Source: Pseudanabaena frigida (lineage in GTDB: Bacteria > Cyanobacteriota > Cyanobacteriia > Pseudanabaenales > Pseudanabaenaceae). From it: a stretch of 64,000 nucleotides of DNA. The notes under the pieces were generated by a model that saw nothing but the letters and a program-made list of their open reading frames with translations, made no database searches and was not told where the DNA came from. Where the stretch lies: the NCBI GenBank assembly GCA_003242085.1, contig QBML01000026.1, positions 1-64,000 on the forward strand. The letters run 5' to 3'. Of this stretch, positions 14,025 to 40,113 are shown in pieces. Each line of letters begins with the position of its first letter. Positions within the stretch are counted from its first letter, which is position 1. The position numbers were made by a program, and so were the translations under genes.

Positions 14025-14237
14025 CTAAGGCATAGAAGAGGCGGGAATCCAAAGATGCAATGTAGGAACAGACACGCCGAGATTCTTGGCTACAAGTCTA
14101 AGGAAAATACCACTAAAGAGAAGAGCCTTAGCAGTTTCAATAATCTGGCTCACGATCTTTATACCCCCATCTGTACCTTTAATTGGCTTCTTATTAAGTT
14201 GATATTTAATTACCCAGATCGAACTACGGTAACCCAA
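14025..14237 (-). pseudogene. C-terminal remnant of a serine recombinase (resolvase/invertase)
   Basis: The 70-codon frame ends with IETAKALLFSG, then LVAKNLGVSVPTLHLWIPAS. That matches the helix-turn-helix tail of Hin/Tn3-type resolvases (pattern: A-x-x-L-x-x-G, V-A-K-x-L-G-V-S-x-x-T-L-Y-x-x-x-P-A). The catalytic N-terminal domain with its serine is absent. Residues before it do not look like a recombinase. Probably the relic of a mobile element; an inverted-repeat operator overlaps its start side. Confidence 0.45.
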
Positions 14238-14253
14238 TCTAAATAGCGTAGTT
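14222..14253. promoter_or_regulatory. Inverted repeat AACTACG-N18-CGTAGTT, copy 1
   Basis: AACTACG at 14222-14228 and CGTAGTT at 14247-14253 are separated by exactly 18 bases. The same geometry recurs at 14441-14472 and, with shorter matches, at 20761-20792. A dimeric or tetrameric regulator-binding site is inferred. This copy lies about 380 bp before ssuD and may be accessory or looping. Confidence 0.55.
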
Positions 14254-14633
14254 TAAAGGTTAGACGTTAGTATTTCAAAAATACAGAAGCAAGCTTTTAA
14301 CTTTGTCAGTTGTGATTTTTTGACGACCTCATCAGGCTGTAAATTCCTTGAAAATAATGGCTCAGAGTTAAAATACTTAATAGTCACGAACAAACCGTAG
14401 ATTTGTTGATCTTATGCAATCATCTATGTAATACTAACTAAACTACGGTTTTATCAAGTATTTGCCGTAGTTTAACCGTAATATAGACCTCAAAAACTAT
14501 CAGTTTGATTTTGCATATAGTGTTTCCCAGTCTAGTGAAGTAGAGTTTTTCCGTTGAAGGCAGAAGAACCTCAGTACCTTACTTGAAAAGAGCTATATCT
14601 GAATTGAGTAGATAAAAAGAATAGGAGTGCATT
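14254..14633 (+). other. ssu upstream region, no gene
   Basis: This 380-bp stretch carries no plausible coding frame. It holds the second inverted repeat (14441-14472), an isolated half-site CCGTAG at 14395-14400, another near-half-site AACCGTAAT just after copy 2, and an AGGAG ribosome-binding site at about 14623 that supports the GTG start of ssuD. It probably contains the regulated promoter of the ssu operon. Confidence 0.6.
14441..14472. promoter_or_regulatory. Inverted repeat AACTACG-N18-CGTAGTT, copy 2
   Basis: AAACTACGG (14440-14448) and CCGTAGTTT (14465-14473) form perfect 9-bp arms; measured on the 7-bp core the spacer is again 18. It lies 160-195 bp before ssuD and is the best candidate operator for the ssu operon. 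The cognate regulator is unknown and is not evident in the window. Confidence 0.65.
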
Positions 14634-15830
14634 GTGCAGATTTTTTGGTTTATTCCCACCCACGGCGATGGACGCTATCTCGGTACGAGCATTGGTGGAC
14701 GGGCAACCAATCTAGGCTATCTTCAGCAAATTGCTCAAGCTGTTGATCGCCTTGGTTACGTGGGCGCGTTATTACCAACTGGGCGATCGTGTGATGATGC
14801 TTGGGTAGTGGCTTCTACATTAGTTTCCGTTACGCAACGCATGAAATTTCTTGTAGCTATTCGCCCTGGTTTAATGTCTCCTGGGGTGGCAGCGAGAATG
14901 GCGGCGACATTCGATCGTCTATCGGGTGGTCGTTTGTTGATTAATGTCGTCACTGGGGGCGATCCAGTGGAGCTCGCTGGCGATGGGTTGCACTTAGATC
15001 ACACTGCACGCTACGAATTGACTGATGAGTTTTTGACAGCTTGGCGTGAGATTTGCTCTGGTTCTTCCAATTTTAAAGGCGAATATCTCGATATTCGCGA
15101 TGGTAAACTTCTATTTACTCCTGTACAAAAGCCTCATCCTCCACTATGGTTTGGTGGATCTTCTCCGATCGCGCAACAAATAGCTGGTAAACATATTGAT
15201 ACTTATTTGACTTGGGGAGAGCCACCTGCACAAGTCGCTGAAAAAATTGAGGTCGTTAAAAAGCTATCAGAAAAAGAAGGAAGACAAATTAAATTTGGGA
15301 TTCGGATGCATGTAATTGTGCGTGAAACCAAGAGCGAAGCATGGGAGGCAGCCAATAATCTTATTCGCTATGTTGATGAGCAATCAATTGTGAAAGCTCA
15401 ACAGGTCTATGCTCGCATGGACTCCGTTGGACAACAACGAATGTCTCAACTTCATGGTGGTAAGAAAGACAACCTAGAAATTAGTCCCGATCTATGGGCG
15501 GGTGTTGGCTTAATTCGTGGTGGTGCAGGTACAGCTCTAGTTGGAGATCCTGATACTGTTGCAAAGCGCCTATTAGAATACAGTGATCTTGGAGTGGAGA
15601 GTTTCATTCTTTCTGGTTATCCCCATTTAGAAGAAGCCTATCGAGTTGCGGAATTGCTATTCCCACGGTTACCCTTAGAGAATTTGCCATCGATTGATCG
15701 CCAATTAATGACTGGTCCTTTTGGGGAAATTTTGGCAAATGAAGATTTACCTAAAGGACAAACAGAAAATATTTCTGAAAAAGTTTCTGACAACTTCTCT
15801 GTAAGAGAGCCTCAACCAACGGTGGACTAA
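14634..15830 (+). CDS. ssuD: FMNH2-dependent alkanesulfonate monooxygenase
   Basis: 398 residues from a GTG preceded by AGGAG. It is a flavin-dependent TIM-barrel (bacterial luciferase-like) enzyme that oxygenates alkanesulfonates to aldehyde plus sulfite. Landmarks: [17 protein letters not shown] at the N-terminus, [39 protein letters not shown]-type segment, NVVTGGDP, and [12 protein letters not shown]. The last ~30 residues are an acidic extension beyond the usual end of SsuD (about 380). It heads the operon ssuD-ssuC-ssuB-ssuE; ssuC begins at the base after its stop. Reduced flavin is expected from SsuE. Assimilated sulfite feeds cysteine synthesis. Confidence 0.95.
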
Positions 15831-16670
15831 ATGGAACAGTCTTTTGGTAATTCTATTAATAAGCCTAAGCCAAAGTCTCTAAAGCAGAAGTCTGGAAATG
15901 CTTTGTATCGTTTTTGGCGCGGATTTTTGCCTTGGGTAGTGCCAATTGTATCGATCCTTCTATGGCAAATCTCTTCCCAAAATGGTTGGCTCTCGACAAA
16001 GATTTTGCCCGCACCACTGGATGTTTTAAAAGTTGGTATTAAGCTTGCTCAGTCTGGCGAGCTCCTCAAACATCTGACTATTAGCGGTACAAGAGCCTTG
16101 ATTGGGTTTGTGATCGGTGGTGGCATTGGGTTTCTGTTTGGACTAATCAATGGCACTTTTGCGATCGCCGAAACTCTACTCGATACATCCCTCCAGATGC
16201 TTCGCAATATTCCACATCTTGCCCTAATTCCCCTTGTGATTTTGTGGTTTGGTATTGGCGAAGAGGCGAAAATATTTCTAGTAGTGATCGGGGTAATGTT
16301 CCCCATCTATCTCAATACCTATCATGGTATCCGTACTGTTGATTCGGGACTAATTGAGATGGGCAAGGTCTATGGATTAAATGCTTTGGGCGTATTTTGG
16401 CAAATAGTTTTACCAGGAGCCTTACCCTCGATTCTAGTTGGTGTGCGCTTTGCACTCGGGATCATGTGGCTGACCTTGATTGTCTCAGAAACGATCGCGG
16501 CTGATTCAGGTATTGGCTATCTCGCTATGAATGCAAGGGAATTTCTCCAAACTGATGTGGTGGTATTTGCCATTTTGCTCTATGCCTTGCTAGGGAAATT
16601 AGCAGATACGATCGCGCGTTATTTAGAGTCTGTATTGCTGAAATGGCATCCAGCCTATAGCGGAAAATAG
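15831..16670 (+). CDS. ssuC: Sulfonate ABC transporter permease
   Basis: 279 residues from an ATG that abuts the ssuD stop. It is a BPD-type inner-membrane permease of the SsuC/TauC/NrtB group with about six membrane helices. The cytoplasmic EAA loop, which docks the ATPase, is visible as MGKVYGLNALGVFWQIVLP near residues 180-200. The N-terminal ~35 residues are polar and cytosolic. The operon supplies the ATPase (ssuB) but no binding protein; the SsuA-type proteins encoded at 20918 or 31895 may serve it. Confidence 0.92.
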   Translation: MEQSFGNSINKPKPKSLKQKSGNALYRFWRGFLPWVVPIVSILLWQISSQNGWLSTKILPAPLDVLKVGIKLAQSGELLKHLTISGTRALIGFVIGGGIGFLFGLINGTFAIAETLLDTSLQMLRNIPHLALIPLVILWFGIGEEAKIFLVVIGVMFPIYLNTYHGIRTVDSGLIEMGKVYGLNALGVFWQIVLPGALPSILVGVRFALGIMWLTLIVSETIAADSGIGYLAMNAREFLQTDVVVFAILLYALLGKLADTIARYLESVLLKWHPAYSGK

Positions 16671-16709
16671 TCAAAATTGTATTACGCAGTCATCTCAGGA
16701 GATGAAATC

Positions 16710-17486
16710 ATGAGCCAACTTATATCTATCGAAAATGGTATCGACCTCAAAATTGAGAATCTAGCCAAAAAATTTGGTGATCATACGGTATTACAAGACC
16801 TCAATTTGGAAATAAACTCAGGCGAATTTGTCACCATTGTCGGTAGAAGTGGCTGCGGTAAAACAACTTTACTAAGACTAATTGCAGGATTAGAAAGAAT
16901 TTCCAAAGGCAAAATCAATCTTGATCACCAAACAGTAAATTCTTTGCATCCACAAATCAAAGTTATGTTTCAAGATTCGCGTCTACTACCTTGGCAAAAG
17001 GTATTAGATAACGTGCGTCTAGGCTTACCAAAAGATTCCCGCTCTAAAGCAATGGAAGTTCTACATCAAGTAGGTTTAGCGACTAAAGCTAAAGAATTTC
17101 CTTCTACGCTTTCTGGTGGACAAAAGCAAAGAGTGGCTTTGGCTAGAGCTTTGGTGAGTAATCCTCGTTTGTTATTGCTAGATGAGCCTTTGGGTGCTCT
17201 AGATGCTTTGACGAGAATTGAGATGCAGCGCTTGCTAGAGGATCTCTGGCTAGATCAAAAATTTACAGCTTTCTTGATTACTCACGATGTTGAAGAAGCG
17301 ATCGCTTTAGGGGATCGGGTGATTTTGCTTGAAGAAGGAAAAATTGTGATGGATGTCAAGATCGATCTCCCTCGTCCAAGGGCACGAGGTACTGCGGAAT
17401 TCGCAACGCTAGTCGATCGCATTCGTAGCCGTGTTATGAACCAAAACTCTTTTTTCGATTCTGAACTTCATGCCAATGCTGCTTAG
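16710..17486 (+). CDS. ssuB: Sulfonate ABC transporter ATP-binding protein
   Basis: 258 residues from the ATG at 16710, chosen because an AGGAG lies just before it; a TTG at 16677 lacks this. It has Walker A GRSGCGKTT, Q-loop FQDSRLLPWQK, signature LSGGQKQR, Walker B LLLLDEPLGALD and the switch His in ITHDVEEA. It powers sulfonate uptake with SsuC. FQDSRLLPW is typical of the nitrate/sulfonate/taurine importer subgroup. Substrate specificity is set by the binding protein, so sulfonate is inferred from ssuD and ssuE. Confidence 0.93.
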   Translation: MSQLISIENGIDLKIENLAKKFGDHTVLQDLNLEINSGEFVTIVGRSGCGKTTLLRLIAGLERISKGKINLDHQTVNSLHPQIKVMFQDSRLLPWQKVLDNVRLGLPKDSRSKAMEVLHQVGLATKAKEFPSTLSGGQKQRVALARALVSNPRLLLLDEPLGALDALTRIEMQRLLEDLWLDQKFTAFLITHDVEEAIALGDRVILLEEGKIVMDVKIDLPRPRARGTAEFATLVDRIRSRVMNQNSFFDSELHANAA

Positions 17487-17618
17487 GGTTCCGCGATTTA
17501 AAAAATCGGTTCTTTACTTTACTGCACAATGCTTAATTTTTACGGAATGGATGATCCTTAACAGCAATCATCTTCTATTCCCAACAATTTATTCTATTAA
17601 TTCAATTCAAAACTAACT

Positions 17619-18149
17619 ATGACTAAGATTCTTCTAATTAACGGCAGTCCATCTGCTCCTTCACGTTCGCAGGGTATTTTGGAATATGCGATCGCCTTAC
17701 TCACAGAGCAAGGGGTAAAGACAGATCTGATCTCTGTACGCGATCTCCCTGCGGAGGATTTAGTATTTGGCAAGTACAACAGCCCTAACTTAGAACAGCC
17801 TAAAGCTCTGCTTGCAGAGGCTGATGGGGTGATTATTTCAACTCCAATTTACAAAGCTTCCTACACAGGTTTACTCAAAACGTTTCTAGATTTGCTACCT
17901 CAAAAAGCCCTCAGTGATAAGGTTATATTACCGATCGCTACAGGTGGTTCAATTGCTCATTTATTAGCGATCGACTTCACGCTCAAGCCTGTCCTCAGTG
18001 AGTTAGGAGCAAGACATATTCTTGGTGTTTTGTATGCTGTGGATAAGCAAGTAACTTGGAGTGAAAACCAAACAGTAATTTTAGAAGAAGAGATCGATCT
18101 AAGGTTGAAGGAATCTTTGGACGCACTGCTCAAAGCCGTAAAACGTTAA
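17619..18149 (+). CDS. ssuE: NAD(P)H-dependent FMN reductase
   Basis: 176 residues from ATG. Flavodoxin-like fold with the phosphate-binding loop INGSPSAPSRS near residue 7 and the ISTPIYKASYTGLLKTFLD segment typical of SsuE. It reduces FMN for SsuD and perhaps for the DszC/SfnB-like enzyme at the far end of the island. A 132-bp gap separates it from ssuB with no obvious terminator, so co-transcription is likely. A 20-bp hairpin that includes its stop codon ends the operon. Confidence 0.93.
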   Translation: MTKILLINGSPSAPSRSQGILEYAIALLTEQGVKTDLISVRDLPAEDLVFGKYNSPNLEQPKALLAEADGVIISTPIYKASYTGLLKTFLDLLPQKALSDKVILPIATGGSIAHLLAIDFTLKPVLSELGARHILGVLYAVDKQVTWSENQTVILEEEIDLRLKESLDALLKAVKR

Positions 18150-18187
18150 GAAAGAATCGGTGAAAAGCACCGATTCTTTCTTAACGT
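18143..18187 (+). terminator. 20-bp perfect hairpin ending the ssu operon
   Basis: Positions 18143-18162 pair perfectly with 18168-18187 around an AAAAG loop. The left arm contains the last codons and TAA stop of ssuE. This should separate the ssu operon from the downstream fusion gene. Confidence 0.8.
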
Positions 18188-18396
18188 AAACCACTCTTTG
18201 AAACAGTGATTTAAAGAGTTATTTTTAGCATTTGGTAACTTAATCAGGAAACTAAAACTTTTCAAGCTTTTTTGCAGATTTTAGCTAAATAGATGACTTT
18301 TAAACCTTAGCCAAGAGGTTAATTTATAAGCAAATTCACAAAACTTTATCGAATTGCAAAAACTCCTAACCTTAAATCATCGATTAGTTAACTGAT

Positions 18397-20706
18397 ATGG
18401 CTCAAAACAATATTCAAAAAGCCACAAATGAATCTAAATCTGCAACGATCGCAATTATTGGTGGCGGATTTAGCGGTACACTTGTGGCGGTAAATCTATT
18501 AAAAACTGCAACGCAACCATTAGCGATTAAACTTATTGAGCGTCGCGAACAGATTGCCAAGGGTATTGCCTACAGCACAGATACAAATTGTCATTTACTA
18601 AATGTCTCGGCGGGAAACATGACTGCTTTCCCCAATGATTCAGGACATTTTTTGCGATGGCTCTATTACAATTACAGCGAGTTGGCTGATTTCCTTCCTA
18701 ATGAAATTACGGCAAGCACCTTCATCCCTCGCAAGGTTTATGGATTATATATCCAATCAATTTTAGAGGAAGCCCTTGCTACGGCTCCTAACCATGTCAA
18801 GCTGGAACGGGTAAACGATGAAGTAATTGCCGTTGAGAAAATTCAAACAGCTAGTTCAGAACGAGCGCGGGTTTTCTTAAAGCATCAAGGGGCGATCGCT
18901 GCGGATAAAGTTGTCTTAGCTTTAGGGAATTCGCCCAATGCTTTACCCCAAGACTCTGGCAATATTCGTAACGCTTGGTCTATCGATGCGCTGGAAAGTC
19001 TTAATCCCGATGATGATGTGTTGCTGATTGGTACTGGCTTAACGATGGTGGATATGGTGCTATCGTTGCATGAACGTAACCATAAGGGCAAAATTTATGC
19101 GGTATCACGACGGGGATTGTCACCACAAAGACACCAAGCTACCAAGCCTTACCCTGCTTTTTTGACAGTGGAGAATGCACCCAAAACAACATTGGGACTA
19201 TGGCGGCGACTACGTGCGGAACTCAAAAAAGCTGAAGGAGATGGGTATGACTGGCGAGCAGTGATTGATTCTTTACGTCCAATTACCCAGAAGCTTTGGC
19301 AACAATTATCAATTGAGGAACAGCAAAGATTTTTACGTCATGCTACGCCCTATTGGGATGTGCATCGTCATCGCATCGCGCAGCAGGTTGCCGAAGCTCT
19401 CGATCGGCTTTTGGCTTCAGGACAATTAGAAATCGCGGCAGGACGGATTCAGGGACAGAATCTAAACGAGAATGGTGTAATTGTCACAATTCAACCAAGG
19501 AATAATAAAGCTCAAAGCCAGTCTAGCTATAGTTTACAAGCAAGTCGAATCGTTAACTGCACAGGTGTAGCTGCTGATTACCGAAAATCATCTCATCCTC
19601 TAGTGGAAAGTTTGCGATCGCAACATTTAATTAGCCCAAATCCCATTGGCTTAGGTATTGCATCGGCGGCTAATGGGGCTTTATTTAATGGCACAAATAA
19701 ACCTTCAAATCTGCTCTATACTATTGGCACACCCAGCAAAGGCGATCTCTGGGAAACGATCGCGGTTCCTGAATTGCGTGGACAGGCTCAGGCCTTAGCC
19801 GAAACATTATTGCGATCGCTCCCTTTACGAGTGCGTTCCATTCCCACCACACCGCTACTGATTGGCGATATTCTCCAGCAAGTAAATTCAACGCTGCTAA
19901 TCTTTCGTCAATTCTTCGATCCTGAAACCAGCAGCTACACCTATCTTATCGCCGATCGCCAGACCAGAGAAGCGGTACTTGTTGATCCTGTTTTAGAACA
20001 AGTGGAGCGCGATTTACAGGCGATCGATGATTTGGGGTTAACTTTGCGCTATTCCTTAGAAACCCATATTCACGCCGATCATGTCACAGGCGCTGGTAAA
20101 TTGCGACAACAACGTGGTGCTCAAATCCTAGTTCCCGAAAATGCCGCCGTTCTCAAAGCTGACCTATTTCTTGCTGATGGGGAGATTTTGACGATTGGCT
20201 CAGTCACAATTGAGGCAATTTCCACCAATGGACATACCAACGCCCATTTGTCTTATTTGATAAATGATACGCATTTGTTAACGGGTGACGCGCTCTTTAT
20301 TCGCGGTTGTGGGCGTACCGATTTCCAAGGTGGTGATGCTGGTAGGCTCTACGATGCGGTTACAAAGAAATTATTTACACTTCCCGATGAAACATTTGTC
20401 TATCCCGCCCATGATTATAAAGGTCGTACTGTCTCCACGATTGGCGAAGAGAAGCGACTGAATCCAAGATTTAGCGATCGCTCTCGCAGTCAGTTCATTA
20501 CGATTATGAATAATCTCAATCTAGCATTTCCCAAAAAGATGAACGAAGCGGTTCCTGCTAATGAATATTGTGGCGATTTCATTCCTCAAGATGGCGTAGA
20601 GAATTTAGCGATTAATTTAGGAATTAATCAAGATGAAAAAGAAATAGAACTCACCATTTTGAAAAACACCGAAATCTACAACGACTATTTCGCCATGTAT
20701 ATCTAG
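18397..20706 (+). CDS. FAD/NAD(P)-binding oxidoreductase fused to ETHE1-like persulfide dioxygenase
   Basis: 769 residues from ATG. Residues ~17-480 form an FAD/NAD(P)-binding module (GGGFSGTLVAVNLL dinucleotide loop; YSTDTNCHLLNVSAG and LIGTGLTMVDMV typical of the HI0933/COG4529-like group). Residues ~500-735 are a metallo-beta-lactamase-fold domain of the ETHE1 type: iron ligands in HIHADH (His557, His559, Asp561, His562), GHTNAH, LTGDALFIRGCGRTDFQ-type segment and PAHDY. ETHE1 enzymes oxidise glutathione persulfide to sulfite. The fusion, between two sulfur operons, suggests coupling of flavin redox chemistry to sulfane-sulfur oxidation. The FAD domain's substrate is unknown. The preceding ssuE terminator suggests its own promoter. 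Confidence 0.88.
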   Translation: MAQNNIQKATNESKSATIAIIGGGFSGTLVAVNLLKTATQPLAIKLIERREQIAKGIAYSTDTNCHLLNVSAGNMTAFPNDSGHFLRWLYYNYSELADFLPNEITASTFIPRKVYGLYIQSILEEALATAPNHVKLERVNDEVIAVEKIQTASSERARVFLKHQGAIAADKVVLALGNSPNALPQDSGNIRNAWSIDALESLNPDDDVLLIGTGLTMVDMVLSLHERNHKGKIYAVSRRGLSPQRHQATKPYPAFLTVENAPKTTLGLWRRLRAELKKAEGDGYDWRAVIDSLRPITQKLWQQLSIEEQQRFLRHATPYWDVHRHRIAQQVAEALDRLLASGQLEIAAGRIQGQNLNENGVIVTIQPRNNKAQSQSSYSLQASRIVNCTGVAADYRKSSHPLVESLRSQHLISPNPIGLGIASAANGALFNGTNKPSNLLYTIGTPSKGDLWETIAVPELRGQAQALAETLLRSLPLRVRSIPTTPLLIGDILQQVNSTLLIFRQFFDPETSSYTYLIADRQTREAVLVDPVLEQVERDLQAIDDLGLTLRYSLETHIHADHVTGAGKLRQQRGAQILVPENAAVLKADLFLADGEILTIGSVTIEAISTNGHTNAHLSYLINDTHLLTGDALFIRGCGRTDFQGGDAGRLYDAVTKKLFTLPDETFVYPAHDYKGRTVSTIGEEKRLNPRFSDRSRSQFITIMNNLNLAFPKKMNEAVPANEYCGDFIPQDGVENLAINLGINQDEKEIELTILKNTEIYNDYFAMYI

Positions 20707-20760
20707 AAAAAGAAGTTTTACGAAATAACCTTTTTCTTAGCTATAGCTAGCTTTTTAGTA

Positions 20761-20792
20761 TTCTACGGTATATACTTGTAATTACCGTATTT
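20761..20792. promoter_or_regulatory. Inverted repeat CTACG-N18-CGTAT, copy 3
   Basis: CTACGG (20763-20768) and CCGTA (20785-20789) keep the same 18-base core spacing as the two sites before ssuD; arms can also be read TACGGTA/TACCGTA. It lies about 130-155 bp before the sulfonate-binding protein gene that heads the next run of sulfur genes, and is probably an operator of the same regulon. Confidence 0.6.
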
Positions 20793-20917: not shown

Positions 20918-21997
20918 ATGTTCAAAACTATTCTCTTTAAACAATCTCAGCGATCGCCCATCGCCGCTCTTGCCAAGCTCTCAGCATTGGCAGTTAGCGC
21001 CACTTTATTTATCTCTTGCGCCCCTCAGACTAGCAATACTAGCAACACGGCTACATCTCCCGCCGCTACATCTAATACCGCCAGCAGTCCTAGCGCTGCT
21101 CCGAATACTGATAAGCCAGCTAGTGGCAAAGTAAACCTGAGAATTGGATTCCAAAAAGCAGGAACAGTTCTATTTTCTATAAAAGGTAAAGGAACCTTAG
21201 AAAACACTTTTAAAGCAGCAGGTGGAACCGTTACATGGTCAGAATTTCCTGCGGGCTTACCGATGGTGGAAGCTCTGAACGCTGGAGCGATCGACATTGC
21301 CTATGTGGGTGAAGCACCGCCTGTATTTGCCCAAGCTGCCACAGGTTCTACAGTGCGTTATGTTGCTTACGATCCCTTTGGTGCAGAGGGTGAGGGAATT
21401 GTGGTTCATAAGGATTCTTCTATCAAAACAATTGCCGATCTCAAGGGTAAGAAACTGGCTGTCCAAAAGGGTTCCAATACCCATTATCTGGTAGTCAGTG
21501 CTTTGGCATCCGCAGGATTGCAAGTGAGTGATGTGGAATTTTCTTTCGTCAAACCATCTGATGCTCGCGCCGCATTTGAGAAGAAAAATGTTGATGCTTG
21601 GTCGATTTGGGACCCCTATCTAGCAGCGATCGAAGTTGATACTGAGGCAAGAATCCTGACGAGTGCCAAAGGCTTAGCCCCCAATCGTGGTTACTATCTT
21701 GCTTCTAAGGAGTTTATTGAGAAGAATCCTGAAGCCTTAAAACAGCTTTTGAATGAGATTAAGAAGGAAAGTGAGTATGTAAAGAAAAATCCTGCCGAAA
21801 TTTCTAAAGTTCTCTCTCCTGCCCTCGGTCTAGATGCTGCCATTATCGAAAAAGCAGAAAAGCGTCGCGATCATGATGTGTTGCCTATAACCGATGAGGT
21901 GGTTGCTAAACAGCAGGAAATTGCGGACACTTTCTCTAAACTCCAACTTATTCCTAAATCTATTGTGGTGAAGGAAGCTGTTTGGAATTGGAAGTAA
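20918..21997 (+). CDS. ssuA: Sulfonate-type ABC substrate-binding lipoprotein (1)
   Basis: 359 residues from ATG with an upstream GAGGAG. Lipoprotein signal LFISC puts lipidated Cys34 at the mature N-terminus, followed by a Thr/Ser/Ala-rich linker to residue ~65. The body is SsuA/TauA-like: VNLRIGFQKAG, EFPAGLPMVEALNAGAIDIA, GEAPPVFAQA, IKTIADLKGKKLAVQKGS, WSIWDPY. It is periplasmic or membrane-anchored and delivers substrate to the SsuC-type permeases. It is closely related to the protein at 31895-32950. It heads a co-directional run reaching 32950. Exact ligand unknown. Confidence 0.9.
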   Translation: MFKTILFKQSQRSPIAALAKLSALAVSATLFISCAPQTSNTSNTATSPAATSNTASSPSAAPNTDKPASGKVNLRIGFQKAGTVLFSIKGKGTLENTFKAAGGTVTWSEFPAGLPMVEALNAGAIDIAYVGEAPPVFAQAATGSTVRYVAYDPFGAEGEGIVVHKDSSIKTIADLKGKKLAVQKGSNTHYLVVSALASAGLQVSDVEFSFVKPSDARAAFEKKNVDAWSIWDPYLAAIEVDTEARILTSAKGLAPNRGYYLASKEFIEKNPEALKQLLNEIKKESEYVKKNPAEISKVLSPALGLDAAIIEKAEKRRDHDVLPITDEVVAKQQEIADTFSKLQLIPKSIVVKEAVWNWK

Positions 21998-22084: not shown

Positions 22085-23809
22085 ATGACTATCTCTGATC
22101 TCAACATCAAAACCCAACGCCTAATCACTGATGTCCTCGTCATTGGTGGCGGTACGGCTGGCACTATGGCAGGAATTAAGGCAAAACAAGCAAATCCCGA
22201 TCGCGATGTCTTGATCCTTGAAAAAGCAAATATTCGTCGTAGCGGTGCGATCGCTATGGGTATGGATGGTGTCAATACCGCAGTCATCCCCGGAAACTCC
22301 ACGCCAGAGCAGTATGTGCGCGAAGTCACGATCGCTAACGATGGCATTGTCGAGCAGAAGACAGTTTATCAGACGGGTAAACTGGGTTTTGAAGTGATTC
22401 AAGAATTAGAAAGTTGGGGTGTAAAGTTCCAAAAGGACGCGCAAGGGGAATATGACCTCAAACAAGTGCATCGCATTGGTAAATATGTGTTGCCGATGCC
22501 TGAAGGTAAAGACCTGAAAACGATTTTGGCGCGGCATGTAAAGCGACATAAAGTGCGGGTTACCAATCGGGTGATGGCAACGCGGGTCTTAGTGGAAAAT
22601 GGTCGAGCGATCGGCGCAGTTGGTTTTGATGTTCGTAACGGTGATTTTGTCGTCATTCAAGCGAAAGCTGTAATCCTCTGTACGGGCGCGGCTGGGCGTT
22701 TAGGACTACCCGCATCTGGCTATCTCTACGGAACCTACGAAAATCCCACCAACGCTGGCGATGGCTACTCAATGGCTTACCATGCAGGGGCAGAACTCTC
22801 GAATATTGAATGCTTCCAAATTAATCCTCTAATCAAAGATTACAATGGTCCCGCCTGTGCCTATGTCGCGGGACCTTTCGGAGCGCATACCGTTAATGCA
22901 GAAGGGCATCGCTTCATCAACTGCGACTATTGGAGTGGTCAGATGATGCTAGAGGTCTGGAAAGAACTCAACTCTGGCAAGGGTCCTGTACAGCTAAAAA
23001 TGACCCATCTCGATCCAGATACGATTTCGGAAATCGAATCGATCATGTGGTCAAATGAGCGCCCTAGTCGTGAGCGCTTCCATGCGGGACGAGGTGAGGA
23101 CTATCGCACTCATGGTGTGGAAATGAACATTTCCGAAATTGGATTATGTAGCGGTCACAGCGCATCGGGCGTATGGGTGAACGAACGCGCAGAAACTACG
23201 GTAGCAGGGCTATACGCGGCAGGTGACATGGCGAGTGTGCCGCACAATTATATGATCGGTGCATTTGTATTTGGTAGAATCGCAGGAATTGAAGGGATGA
23301 AGTACAGCGAGGATTTGGAACACATTGAACCAAATGCTGAATTTCTAGAAGCAGAGAGAGACAGAATTTATGCGCCATTAACTCGTCCTAATGGTGTTCC
23401 CCATACGCAAGTGGAATACAAACTGCGTCGTTTTGTGAATGATTATCTGCAACCACCGAAGTCTACAAACAAGATGGAGATTGGCTTGGGTCTGTTCGAT
23501 CGCTATCAAGAGACTCTTGATATTATGGGCGCTCAAGATCCCCACGAATTAATGCGTTGTATGGAGGTGCATTTCATTCGCGATTGTGCAGAGATGGCAG
23601 CAAGAGCTTCGTTGTTCCGTAAAGAAACAAGATGGGGGCTTTATCATTATCGATTGGATTATCCAGAGAAGAATAATGATGAGTGGTTTTGTCATGTCAA
23701 TTTGAAGAAAGATGAGTCGGGGCAAATGACTCTCTTTAAACGAGAGGTTTCTCCTTACATTATTCCTGTTGATGTAAGTCAAGAAGTTTACGATGTCGCG
23801 GTGAGGTAG
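22085..23809 (+). CDS. AprA-like FAD oxidoreductase (fumarate reductase/APS reductase superfamily)
   Basis: 574 residues from ATG. FAD-binding GGGTAGTMAGIKA near residue 20, EKANIRRSGAIAMGMDGVN, CTGAAGRLGLPASGYLYG, and C-terminal VAGLYAAGDMASVPHNYMIGA follow the fumarate reductase/succinate dehydrogenase flavoprotein layout. RRSG and the MGMDGVN segment resemble the alpha subunit of adenylylsulfate reductase more than succinate dehydrogenase. The small 2x[4Fe-4S] ferredoxin gene two genes on is the likely electron-transfer partner (AprB-like). A cytosolic two-subunit enzyme acting on a sulfur compound is inferred from the neighbours. Dissimilatory APS reduction itself is not expected in a cyanobacterium. 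Confidence 0.82.
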   Translation: MTISDLNIKTQRLITDVLVIGGGTAGTMAGIKAKQANPDRDVLILEKANIRRSGAIAMGMDGVNTAVIPGNSTPEQYVREVTIANDGIVEQKTVYQTGKLGFEVIQELESWGVKFQKDAQGEYDLKQVHRIGKYVLPMPEGKDLKTILARHVKRHKVRVTNRVMATRVLVENGRAIGAVGFDVRNGDFVVIQAKAVILCTGAAGRLGLPASGYLYGTYENPTNAGDGYSMAYHAGAELSNIECFQINPLIKDYNGPACAYVAGPFGAHTVNAEGHRFINCDYWSGQMMLEVWKELNSGKGPVQLKMTHLDPDTISEIESIMWSNERPSRERFHAGRGEDYRTHGVEMNISEIGLCSGHSASGVWVNERAETTVAGLYAAGDMASVPHNYMIGAFVFGRIAGIEGMKYSEDLEHIEPNAEFLEAERDRIYAPLTRPNGVPHTQVEYKLRRFVNDYLQPPKSTNKMEIGLGLFDRYQETLDIMGAQDPHELMRCMEVHFIRDCAEMAARASLFRKETRWGLYHYRLDYPEKNNDEWFCHVNLKKDESGQMTLFKREVSPYIIPVDVSQEVYDVAVR

Positions 23810-38832: not shown

Positions 38833-40113
38833 TTAAGCATCGATCCACACCGCTAGTTTATGGGAATCAAAACTAGCGGTATTAGGCATAACATCAGGAA
38901 GCGTCACATCTCCCTGTAACTTTATTGCTAGATGGTAAGCCTTATTCCCATCATTAGACTGAGAACCCAAACAACTACTATCAGTCCATACTGCTAAGCG
39001 ATCTCCATCCAGTACCCACCAACGCGGAACTTTGGTTTCCATGACTCCTGAAGTTACATCAAAAATGGGAGTGCGATAAACCACCTCATAGCCTCCCCGC
39101 CCATCAGGACGCATCACCGCAAATCTTGCTCGACCAGAAGTGACCCACCGCGCCGAAATTGTGTGAATCTCACCAAAGGAGAGGGGGCGATCGCCATCTA
39201 TTCGCAAAAATCCACCCGATAGAGCCTCTGTTGCTTCGAGTAATTTATTACCACCTTGGGCAATAGGCGGCGGAGTGGCGATTCCCATGTCTACCAGTTT
39301 CCCTGCTATGTAAGAAGCCAAAGCCGCATGTCCTAAATTATTTAAGTGCAGTCCATCAGCAGAATAATTGGGAAGTTCTTCGATCGCAAAGGCTTTATTG
39401 CCTGCATTTATGAAATAAGCACCGACTTTCTTAGAACCTTCTTGCAATGCAAGATCATAAGCCGATCGCCGATCTAGGGTGGCTTGATTGGGTTGCGGAG
39501 TAAGGACAACTAAGCGATCGGGCGGAAACACTTTCGTCATCCCTGTGAGCATGGTTTCTAGATCACCGCGAAAAGTAGCTGGTTTGGGGTTAACGGTATC
39601 TCCTAAGGGTAATTTCCAATAGGCATCATTGGCTCCGTATAACATCAAAACTAGATCGGGATGTCGCGGCACGATCGCATCACGCCAACGCTGCACGGCG
39701 GCGGGGGGAAGAGATTTGCCATCACGCGGTGCTTTTGACAGAGTAGAACCTGAAAGGCTCTCATTGATCTCTTGCCAACCCAGATAACGAGAAAGTAATG
39801 TACTCCAACGGCGATCGCCTCTAGAAGCCCATAGTCCCACGGTTGTACTAGAGCCAAAAAATACTACTTTAGGATGTGTAGAAATCTGGCTAACAGAGTT
39901 GGATTTGCTCAATGCTGGAGAGTTTAAAGAAGAATTTAGAATAGGGTTAGAAATTCCTGTTCCGACAATTCCTGACCAGCAAGCTAGACCAATAAATAGT
40001 CCCAATATCAAGATTCTGATCGCACTTTGCACCGAAGTATCGAGACTTTTAGAATGACTACTTCGCAATCCTTTTAAAGGTCTAGAAACCTGTAACCCTT
40101 TAACGTGACGCAT
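38833..40113 (-). CDS. SGNH/GDSL hydrolase (putative polysaccharide O-acyl esterase or transferase)
   Basis: 426 residues from ATG, overlapping the upstream DUF3131 gene by 14 bp. An N-terminal membrane anchor is near residues 30-55. SGNH blocks: FFGSSTTVGLWASRG (nucleophile Ser), LMLYGANDAYW (Asn) and DGLHLNNLGHAAL (Asp-His). Roughly residues 280-426 form an extra beta-rich domain of unknown type. SGNH enzymes in glycan loci add or remove acetyl or succinyl groups, which fits the neighbouring OpgC-type acyltransferase. It is exported or membrane-bound, facing the periplasm. Transcribed as the last gene of a minus-strand operon with OpgC and DUF3131. Confidence 0.85.
   Translation of the reverse strand: MRHVKGLQVSRPLKGLRSSHSKSLDTSVQSAIRILILGLFIGLACWSGIVGTGISNPILNSSLNSPALSKSNSVSQISTHPKVVFFGSSTTVGLWASRGDRRWSTLLSRYLGWQEINESLSGSTLSKAPRDGKSLPPAAVQRWRDAIVPRHPDLVLMLYGANDAYWKLPLGDTVNPKPATFRGDLETMLTGMTKVFPPDRLVVLTPQPNQATLDRRSAYDLALQEGSKKVGAYFINAGNKAFAIEELPNYSADGLHLNNLGHAALASYIAGKLVDMGIATPPPIAQGGNKLLEATEALSGGFLRIDGDRPLSFGEIHTISARWVTSGRARFAVMRPDGRGGYEVVYRTPIFDVTSGVMETKVPRWWVLDGDRLAVWTDSSCLGSQSNDGNKAYHLAIKLQGDVTLPDVMPNTASFDSHKLAVWIDA

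Follow-up and report, generated by a model that had tools for sequence, protein, structure and literature searches.

We analyzed the first 64,000 nucleotides (forward strand) of contig QBML01000026.1 of the cyanobacterium Pseudanabaena frigida, hereafter the window (G000:C18:1-64000 in our numbering of genomes, contigs, and loci; the whole genome, G000, comprises 5.39 Mb). Three sites in the window, denoted A, B, and C, were found to be copies of a single palindrome, some 36 bp long, with the consensus TAAWCTACGGTAAntCSATSGAntTTACCGTAGWTTA. Comparison across genomes indicates that these sites are very probably operators of a sulfur-acquisition regulon conserved in cyanobacteria. The idea of a sulfur regulon, raised in a preliminary description of this DNA, is borne out by the occurrence of the element ahead of ssu, tauD-like, sbpA, cysA, cysK, TauE-type, and regulator genes. 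The leading candidate for the protein that reads the element is a CymR-like repressor of the Rrf2 family, a reading to which we assign a probability of roughly 0.4. The element adds a new operator to a familiar type of system; a literature search (titles and abstract openings, with most subscription journals outside its reach) surfaced no description of the motif.

The preliminary description located AACTACG-N18-CGTAGTT at 14222-14253 and 14441-14472, and both copies were read directly at these positions. The third copy, CTACG-N18-CGTAT, is present as well and spans 20763-20790; the originally reported 20761-20792 includes two additional flanking bases on each side. A half-site noted at 14395 proved to be the right arm of a degenerate fourth site, which is also present in a homologous promoter copy on contig C19, and another, placed directly 3' of the second copy, is unsupported, being absent from the eight best matrix places in the window. 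The pattern TACGGTA-N12-TACCGTA, with up to two mismatches, matches the window three times, at exactly sites A, B, and C (0.09 matches expected), and none of 100 shuffles reached three. Sites from this genome and from the genus served to train the main profile and matrix. With a separate 38-bp matrix trained on 16 sites, all of them from other genomes, the top-scoring places in the window were sites C (37.6 bits), B (34.8 bits), and A (27.8 bits), followed by the degenerate site (20.3 bits), all other places scoring at most 7.9 bits. Because the 16 training sites were all taken within the genus, some of them from orthologs of the window promoters, they are not free of shared descent.

The shorter pattern of the preliminary description behaves differently from the longer element. 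With two mismatches allowed, it matches the window 17 times compared to 11.2 expected (not significant, 7 of 100 shuffles reaching 17). The proposed genome-wide scan for CTACG-N18-CGTAG with one mismatch failed to show enrichment, yielding 65 matches vs 158 for the reversed control, that is, the pattern is rarer; one of its seven exact matches in the genome (C66:106674) lies inside an open reading frame (ORF). The short pattern, unlike the longer element, therefore has poor specificity, and with mismatches it was rejected as a search tool. The concern that the motif is merely frequent at random applies to the short pattern, which is common, but not to the longer element, which is enriched and located before sulfur genes.

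The promoter region of ssuD, the gene downstream of sites A and B, is duplicated in the genome: window positions ~14141-14497 are homologous to G000:C19 ~39640-39987 (L020 ~640-987). In the C19 copy, the counterparts of sites A and B (39712/39931) are again 219 bp apart, and the weak site is present too; downstream of this copy, in place of ssuD, are an ORF matching phage integrases and a thioredoxin-like gene. Given that this stretch is a copied promoter, recurrence of the 219-bp spacing is not independent evidence, and the C19 pair was dropped as support for this arrangement.

Across the P. frigida genome, the profile detected 17 places with E-values of at most 2.4e-4 and one at 0.0043, followed by a gap to 0.129; 15 of these 18 places were themselves training sites. 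The neighbors of these sites include the ssu genes of the window, genes for SsuA-type proteins, a tauD-like gene, genes for a sulfate-binding protein and a SulP-type permease, cysA, sbpA-cysT-cysW, cysK, a sulfurtransferase-like gene, a gene of the TauE type, and some whose role is unclear. Profile matches with E-values of at most 1 were found in 48 of 58 genomes (P. frigida included), and matches with E-values of at most 0.01 were found in 23 of the 24 named cyanobacteria that carry a relative of the LysR protein discussed below, the exception being a Microcystis; match counts in both genome sets cover both strands, and stricter filters were used in the 58-genome scan. In the named cyanobacteria, the neighboring genes include ssuD, ssuE, ssuB, SsuA-type, TauE, tauD-like, CRP-type, cysA, and genes of unclear role. 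A start codon is located within 500 bp of 172 intergenic sites, 117 of which adjoin a member of 27 sulfur-labelled reference families, a descriptive count and not a test, given that these families were drawn from site-bearing loci. Of 189 sites, five fall within an ORF.

A cleaner test is offered by cysA, which many genomes possess irrespective of their sulfonate genes. A site was detected upstream of it in 36 of the 44 genomes scored, among them every one of the 26 from the genus. The criterion was a score reached by no more than 2 of 500 shuffled matrices, with one cysA copy taken per genome; 47 genomes were given, and three (G047, G052, and G053) were dropped because no cysA was detected. 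The genomes without a cysA site at this threshold are G026, G027, G029 (5/500), G033, G036, G050, G054, and G055 (17/500), and in G027 and G029, sites are present by the other cysA copy. This distribution suggests that the operator is probably ancient in cyanobacteria and extends beyond the sulfonate islands. In the genus, the arms of the cysA operator (L380-L405) are altered, with CAACGG on the left in 23 of 26 loci and CTGTGG on the right in 14 of 26; the changes affect positions that are nearly invariant elsewhere. This operator may be a weakened form of the element or one that is read differently.

The anatomy of the element was derived from 107 non-redundant oriented sites, from loci that were largely picked for having a site and are not a random sample. 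The outer arms, TAC..GTA, are almost invariant and are bordered by A/T flanks, the palindromic core is partly conserved, and at least three core types occur under identical arms. Pair covariation, that is, compensatory change between the arms, does not exceed shuffles, which fits a protein bound to DNA and not an RNA hairpin. A hairpin in the leader is thus not supported. That the sites are either chance repeats or such hairpins is hardly credible overall: the short pattern is common and many sites lie near start codons, but the longer element is enriched, the other-genome matrix peaks at the sites, cysA and LysR-flank sites exceed those obtained with shuffled matrices, and many sites are located far upstream or between divergent genes.

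The location of the sites bears on the mode of action. Of the 172 intergenic sites, 91 end less than 50 bp before a start codon or overlap it, and at sbpA, 15 of 21 sites end 17-26 bp ahead of the start codon; these distances, like the neighbor counts, come from loci often fetched for having a site and are not a random sample. At such short distances, the sites are likely to lie over the promoter or downstream of it. At 9 of the 11 best-scoring sites before LysR genes, the right arm runs directly into TATAAT or TACAAT (by eye). A protein bound at the promoter would block RNA polymerase, so that repression in sulfur-rich cells with release on starvation is the simplest reading. Several observations weigh against it. 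Each ORF was taken to begin at its first possible start, which makes the distances shorter; no general -10 element beyond the A/T flanks was found over the 107 non-redundant sites; and promoter scans of the window gave nothing above shuffles (3 vs 2.0 and 1 vs 1.5). The window sites themselves are distant, ending 127-382 bp from start codons: 382 bp (site A) and 163 bp (site B) from that of ssuD, and 127 bp from the start of the ssuA-type gene in the case of site C. At these promoters, activation, or looping among site A, the weak site, and site B, is conceivable.

As anticipated in the preliminary description, the regulator appears to be encoded outside the window: no window ORF of at least 90 amino acids (aa) matches any of the three candidate regulators at an E-value of 1e-5 or lower. 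On balance, we rank an Rrf2 protein first among the candidate readers, a LysR protein second, and a scheme of shared sites third. In P. frigida, Rrf2 proteins are encoded at G000:C8:56768-57208 and, in the cysK-linked copy, at C12:18627-19058. The Rrf2 protein belongs to the Rrf2 superfamily (TIGR00738, 121.9 bits vs a cut-off of 73.3), and its best specific model in NCBIfam is CymR (NF047409, 110.3 bits), with IscR at 86 bits; its relatives in the PDB include CymR (2y75), the top match being another Rrf2 protein (4cic). An Rrf2 match at an E-value of at most 1e-15 was found in 54 of 58 genomes, and all 36 genomes with a cysA site have an Rrf2-family match. None of the four genomes without Rrf2 has a profile match, and the two of these that were scored at cysA both lack the site. 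The rrf2 gene adjoins cysK in 13 of 17 loci of one set (the exceptions are L160 and L164-L166) and also in L412, L417 (the same G049 locus as L151, which is among the 13), L419, and L422, but not in L413; the second rrf2 copy, present in P. frigida and its relatives, is cysK-linked as well. The rrf2-cysK pairs (L150-L159, L161, L162, L412, L417, L419, and L422) are a possible counterpart of CymR-CysK. In G040 (L414) and G049 (L087), sites adjoin rrf2 genes. A Synechocystis Rrf2 regulator of psaAB is reportedly the topic of a published paper.

The case for the Rrf2 repressor has to be set against a number of adverse findings. The 110.3-bit score is below the CymR equivalog cut-off of 195, and we therefore call the protein CymR-like and not CymR. 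Since Rrf2 is nearly universal, its presence says little, and six genomes with Rrf2 (G030, G031, G039, G044, G048, and G050) have no profile match. Furthermore, the cysA site is below the threshold in six Rrf2-bearing genomes (G027, G029, G036, G050, G054, and G055) and weak (6-13 bits) in 5 of the 36 genomes scored as having it (G028, G031, G034, G040, and G041). The universal rrf2 copy of the genus is not beside cysK (L415, L416, L418, L420, and L421), and in 15 of the 17 loci of the set mentioned above, no site of at least 6 bits was found in the vicinity of rrf2. The arms also fit TNA-N7-TNA, the form of a LysR-type box. Finally, a palindrome of some 36 bp exceeds the lengths named in PMC9338935 for an NsrR site (23 bp) and for an IscR operator fragment (29 bp).

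In a rival reading, a tetramer of the LysR-type protein (G000:C12:267-1178) would occupy two half-boxes, repressing or activating sulfur genes; we consider this protein an unlikely reader, for all the strength of its statistical association with the sites. It contains the DNA-binding and substrate domains of the family (PF00126 and PF03466). Its best model is the selenium-associated LysR and the second is YeiE, with scores below both cut-offs (164.1 bits vs 480 for the YeiE equivalog), and its nearest named relatives, 89-90% identical, are from Pseudanabaena. YeiE binds sulfite and its own promoter (PMC12880088). The 12 genus genomes with the LysR protein have 17-53 site matches, compared to 3-16 in the 14 without it (one-sided p = 8.4e-6, uncorrected for relatedness); the respective values for the close Rrf2 copy and the CRP-type gene are 4.2e-5 and 6.6e-4. 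LysR was the strongest in a joint fit (t = 4.6 vs 1.2 for the close Rrf2 copy and 1.6 for the CRP-type gene), and the association is also detected outside the genus (p = 0.001). The flanks of 59 cyanobacterial loci with LysR relatives hold 39 sites of at least 18 bits against a mean of 0.03 for 30 shuffled matrices. In 10 of these 59 loci, the 300 bp preceding the LysR gene contain a site of at least 12 bits (shuffled mean, 0.025), and in G029, a site is located ahead of paired cysK and LysR genes. Within the LysR tree, a Nostoc clade has flanks devoid of the site, yet the six genomes of this clade that were searched have 4-34 matches elsewhere, so that siteless flanks do not mean absence.

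Against LysR stands the retention of sites where the protein is missing. The cysA site is kept in 21 of 27 genomes without a LysR ortholog and in 15 of 17 with it (G022, with no relative closer than 55%, was placed among the genomes lacking LysR), and 12 of 13 genus members without any LysR relative of 55% identity keep the sbpA site. LysR thus cannot be the sole reader, an option that had seemed the best at first. The association with site counts may reflect gene content because LysR-bearing genomes have more sulfonate clusters. In addition, the recognition-helix letters of LysR are absent from ten further LysR genes that were inspected by eye out of 30 places found in eight genomes, and within the genus, a different palindrome marks the LysR gene's own promoter. 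In P. frigida, this palindrome is CAAATAACG-N9-CGTTATTTG, and many Nostoc-type relatives have GAATCAAATG about 90 bp before the LysR start (by eye; loci L107:1-266, L108, L109, and L111-L118, upstream regions, and L218-L220, L224, L226, and others). These sequences may be autoregulatory boxes of the LysR protein.

A third candidate is a CRP-family, CysR-like protein (C12:20194-20787 in P. frigida), the gene for which neighbors 19 sites; both the label CysR for the CRP-type genes and the membership of CysR in the CRP family are our assumptions. All three proteins of this type that were examined contain a helix-turn-helix scoring above the cut-off (HTH_Crp_2) and a weak cNMP domain below it, and the nearest NCBIfam model is PtrA, also below the cut-off. 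We regard this protein as a very improbable reader. It has no close copy in G020, which nonetheless has 27 matches; the sites at cysA and sbpA persist in several members of the genus that likewise have no close copy (e.g., G010, G013, and G024); and the arm spacing of 22-23 bp is presumably unsuited to a CRP dimer. In its favor, CysR of Synechococcus elongatus is described as the regulator of sulfate-assimilation genes (PMC12016511).

The existence of at least three core types under the same arms, the location of regulator genes of all three kinds next to sites, and the systematic alteration of the arms at the genus cysA site could also point to several regulators (Rrf2, LysR, and the CRP-type CysR-like protein) that share or compete for the element, with a core type for each factor. 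This scheme appears less likely than LysR: the core types may simply mirror the common descent of each promoter, and there is no case where one core requires one factor. Some further regulator is a somewhat poorer prospect still. The reader must be widespread in cyanobacteria, as many families are, but no other kind of regulator recurs beside the sites in the loci read, where no systematic search was made.

Under the preferred reading, a dimeric or tetrameric regulator would bind both arms of the element and close the promoters when cysteine or sulfide is plentiful, and sulfur shortage would free them, turning on genes for sulfate, sulfonate, and taurine uptake and for desulfonation. The binder would be the CymR-like Rrf2 protein of cyanobacteria, the gene for which is mostly a neighbor of cysK outside the genus, and which perhaps reports the cysteine state jointly with CysK. 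The LysR and CRP-type proteins, encoded by genes next to other sites, would belong to the regulon or act as co-regulators. We tentatively propose, as a possibility that we put below even odds, that a phylum-wide CymR-like cysteine-sensing repressor with one long operator is the master switch of cyanobacterial sulfur supply, with a LysR co-regulator added in site-rich lineages. If so, the switch spans the ancestral sulfate transporter together with sulfonate and taurine islands that are wired in by carrying the operator, which would explain how sulfonate clusters join existing sulfur control. To our knowledge, CysR from a single species accounts for most of what is known of sulfur control in cyanobacteria. 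The operator defined here, which many genomes have ahead of genes for sulfate, sulfonate, taurine, and cysteine, provides a target list and three candidate proteins.

The window genes around the sites are listed in Table 1. Between the ssu genes and site C, a 769-aa ORF (18397-20706) consists of an FAD/NAD(P)-binding part fused to a metallo-beta-lactamase part, the latter resembling the sulfur transferase/dioxygenase Blh (matches below the cut-offs). Within the sulfonate cluster, positions 22085-23809 encode a flavoprotein of the fumarate reductase/succinate dehydrogenase type (PRK08275, 1004 bits vs a cut-off of 587), with a weaker likeness to the adenylyl-sulfate reductase alpha subunit; a relative of this flavoprotein is encoded near other operator sites (L021:2026-3645).

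Table 1. Operator sites and neighboring sulfonate genes in the window
Feature	Position	Strand	Sequence	Score	Remark
Site A	14224..14251		CTACGGTAACCCAATCTAAATAGCGTAG	E 3.8e-8 (profile trained with site A included)	conserved A/T flanks widen it to ~14220-14255
Degenerate fourth site	14373..14400		ATACTTAATAGTCACGAACAAACCGTAG	E 0.0016 (profile)	weak
Site B	14443..14470		CTACGGTTTTATCAAGTATTTGCCGTAG	E 4.8e-9 (profile trained with site B included)	
Site C	20763..20790		CTACGGTATATACTTGTAATTACCGTAT	E 9.6e-9 (profile trained with site C included)	
ssuD, FMNH2-dependent alkanesulfonate monooxygenase	14634..15830	+		TIGR03565, 597 bits, above cut-off	presumed regulated gene
ssuC-type sulfonate permease	15831..16670	+		NF008470, 370 bits, above cut-off	
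ssuB-type ATPase	16677..17486	+		best match NF008420, 338 bits, below cut-off of 395	
ssuE-type FMN reductase	17619..18149	+		TIGR03567, 239 bits, above cut-off	
ssuA-type sulfonate-binding protein	20918..21997	+		TIGR01728, 239 bits, above cut-off	first gene 3' of site C

Among known systems, CysR of Synechococcus elongatus resembles the system described here in that it governs sulfate assimilation and that a CRP-type gene adjoins many of the sites; as to differences, the CRP-type protein has PtrA as its nearest NCBIfam model, and the available part of PMC12016511 gives no CysR motif for comparison. The YeiE and selenium-associated LysR regulators have a relative in the LysR protein that is encoded beside a site and matches both models, but with scores below the cut-offs, and that is absent from many site-keeping genomes. 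CymR of Bacillus, together with CysK, reports the cysteine state. The likeness to the CymR-CysK system of Bacillus and Staphylococcus is limited by the score of the cyanobacterial protein below the CymR cut-off, by the long operator, and by the location of the universal copy in the genus away from cysK. The shared features are an Rrf2 protein, a gene that in many cyanobacteria lies beside cysK, sulfur-uptake targets, and, at many cyanobacterial sites, a position near the start codon that would suit a repressor.

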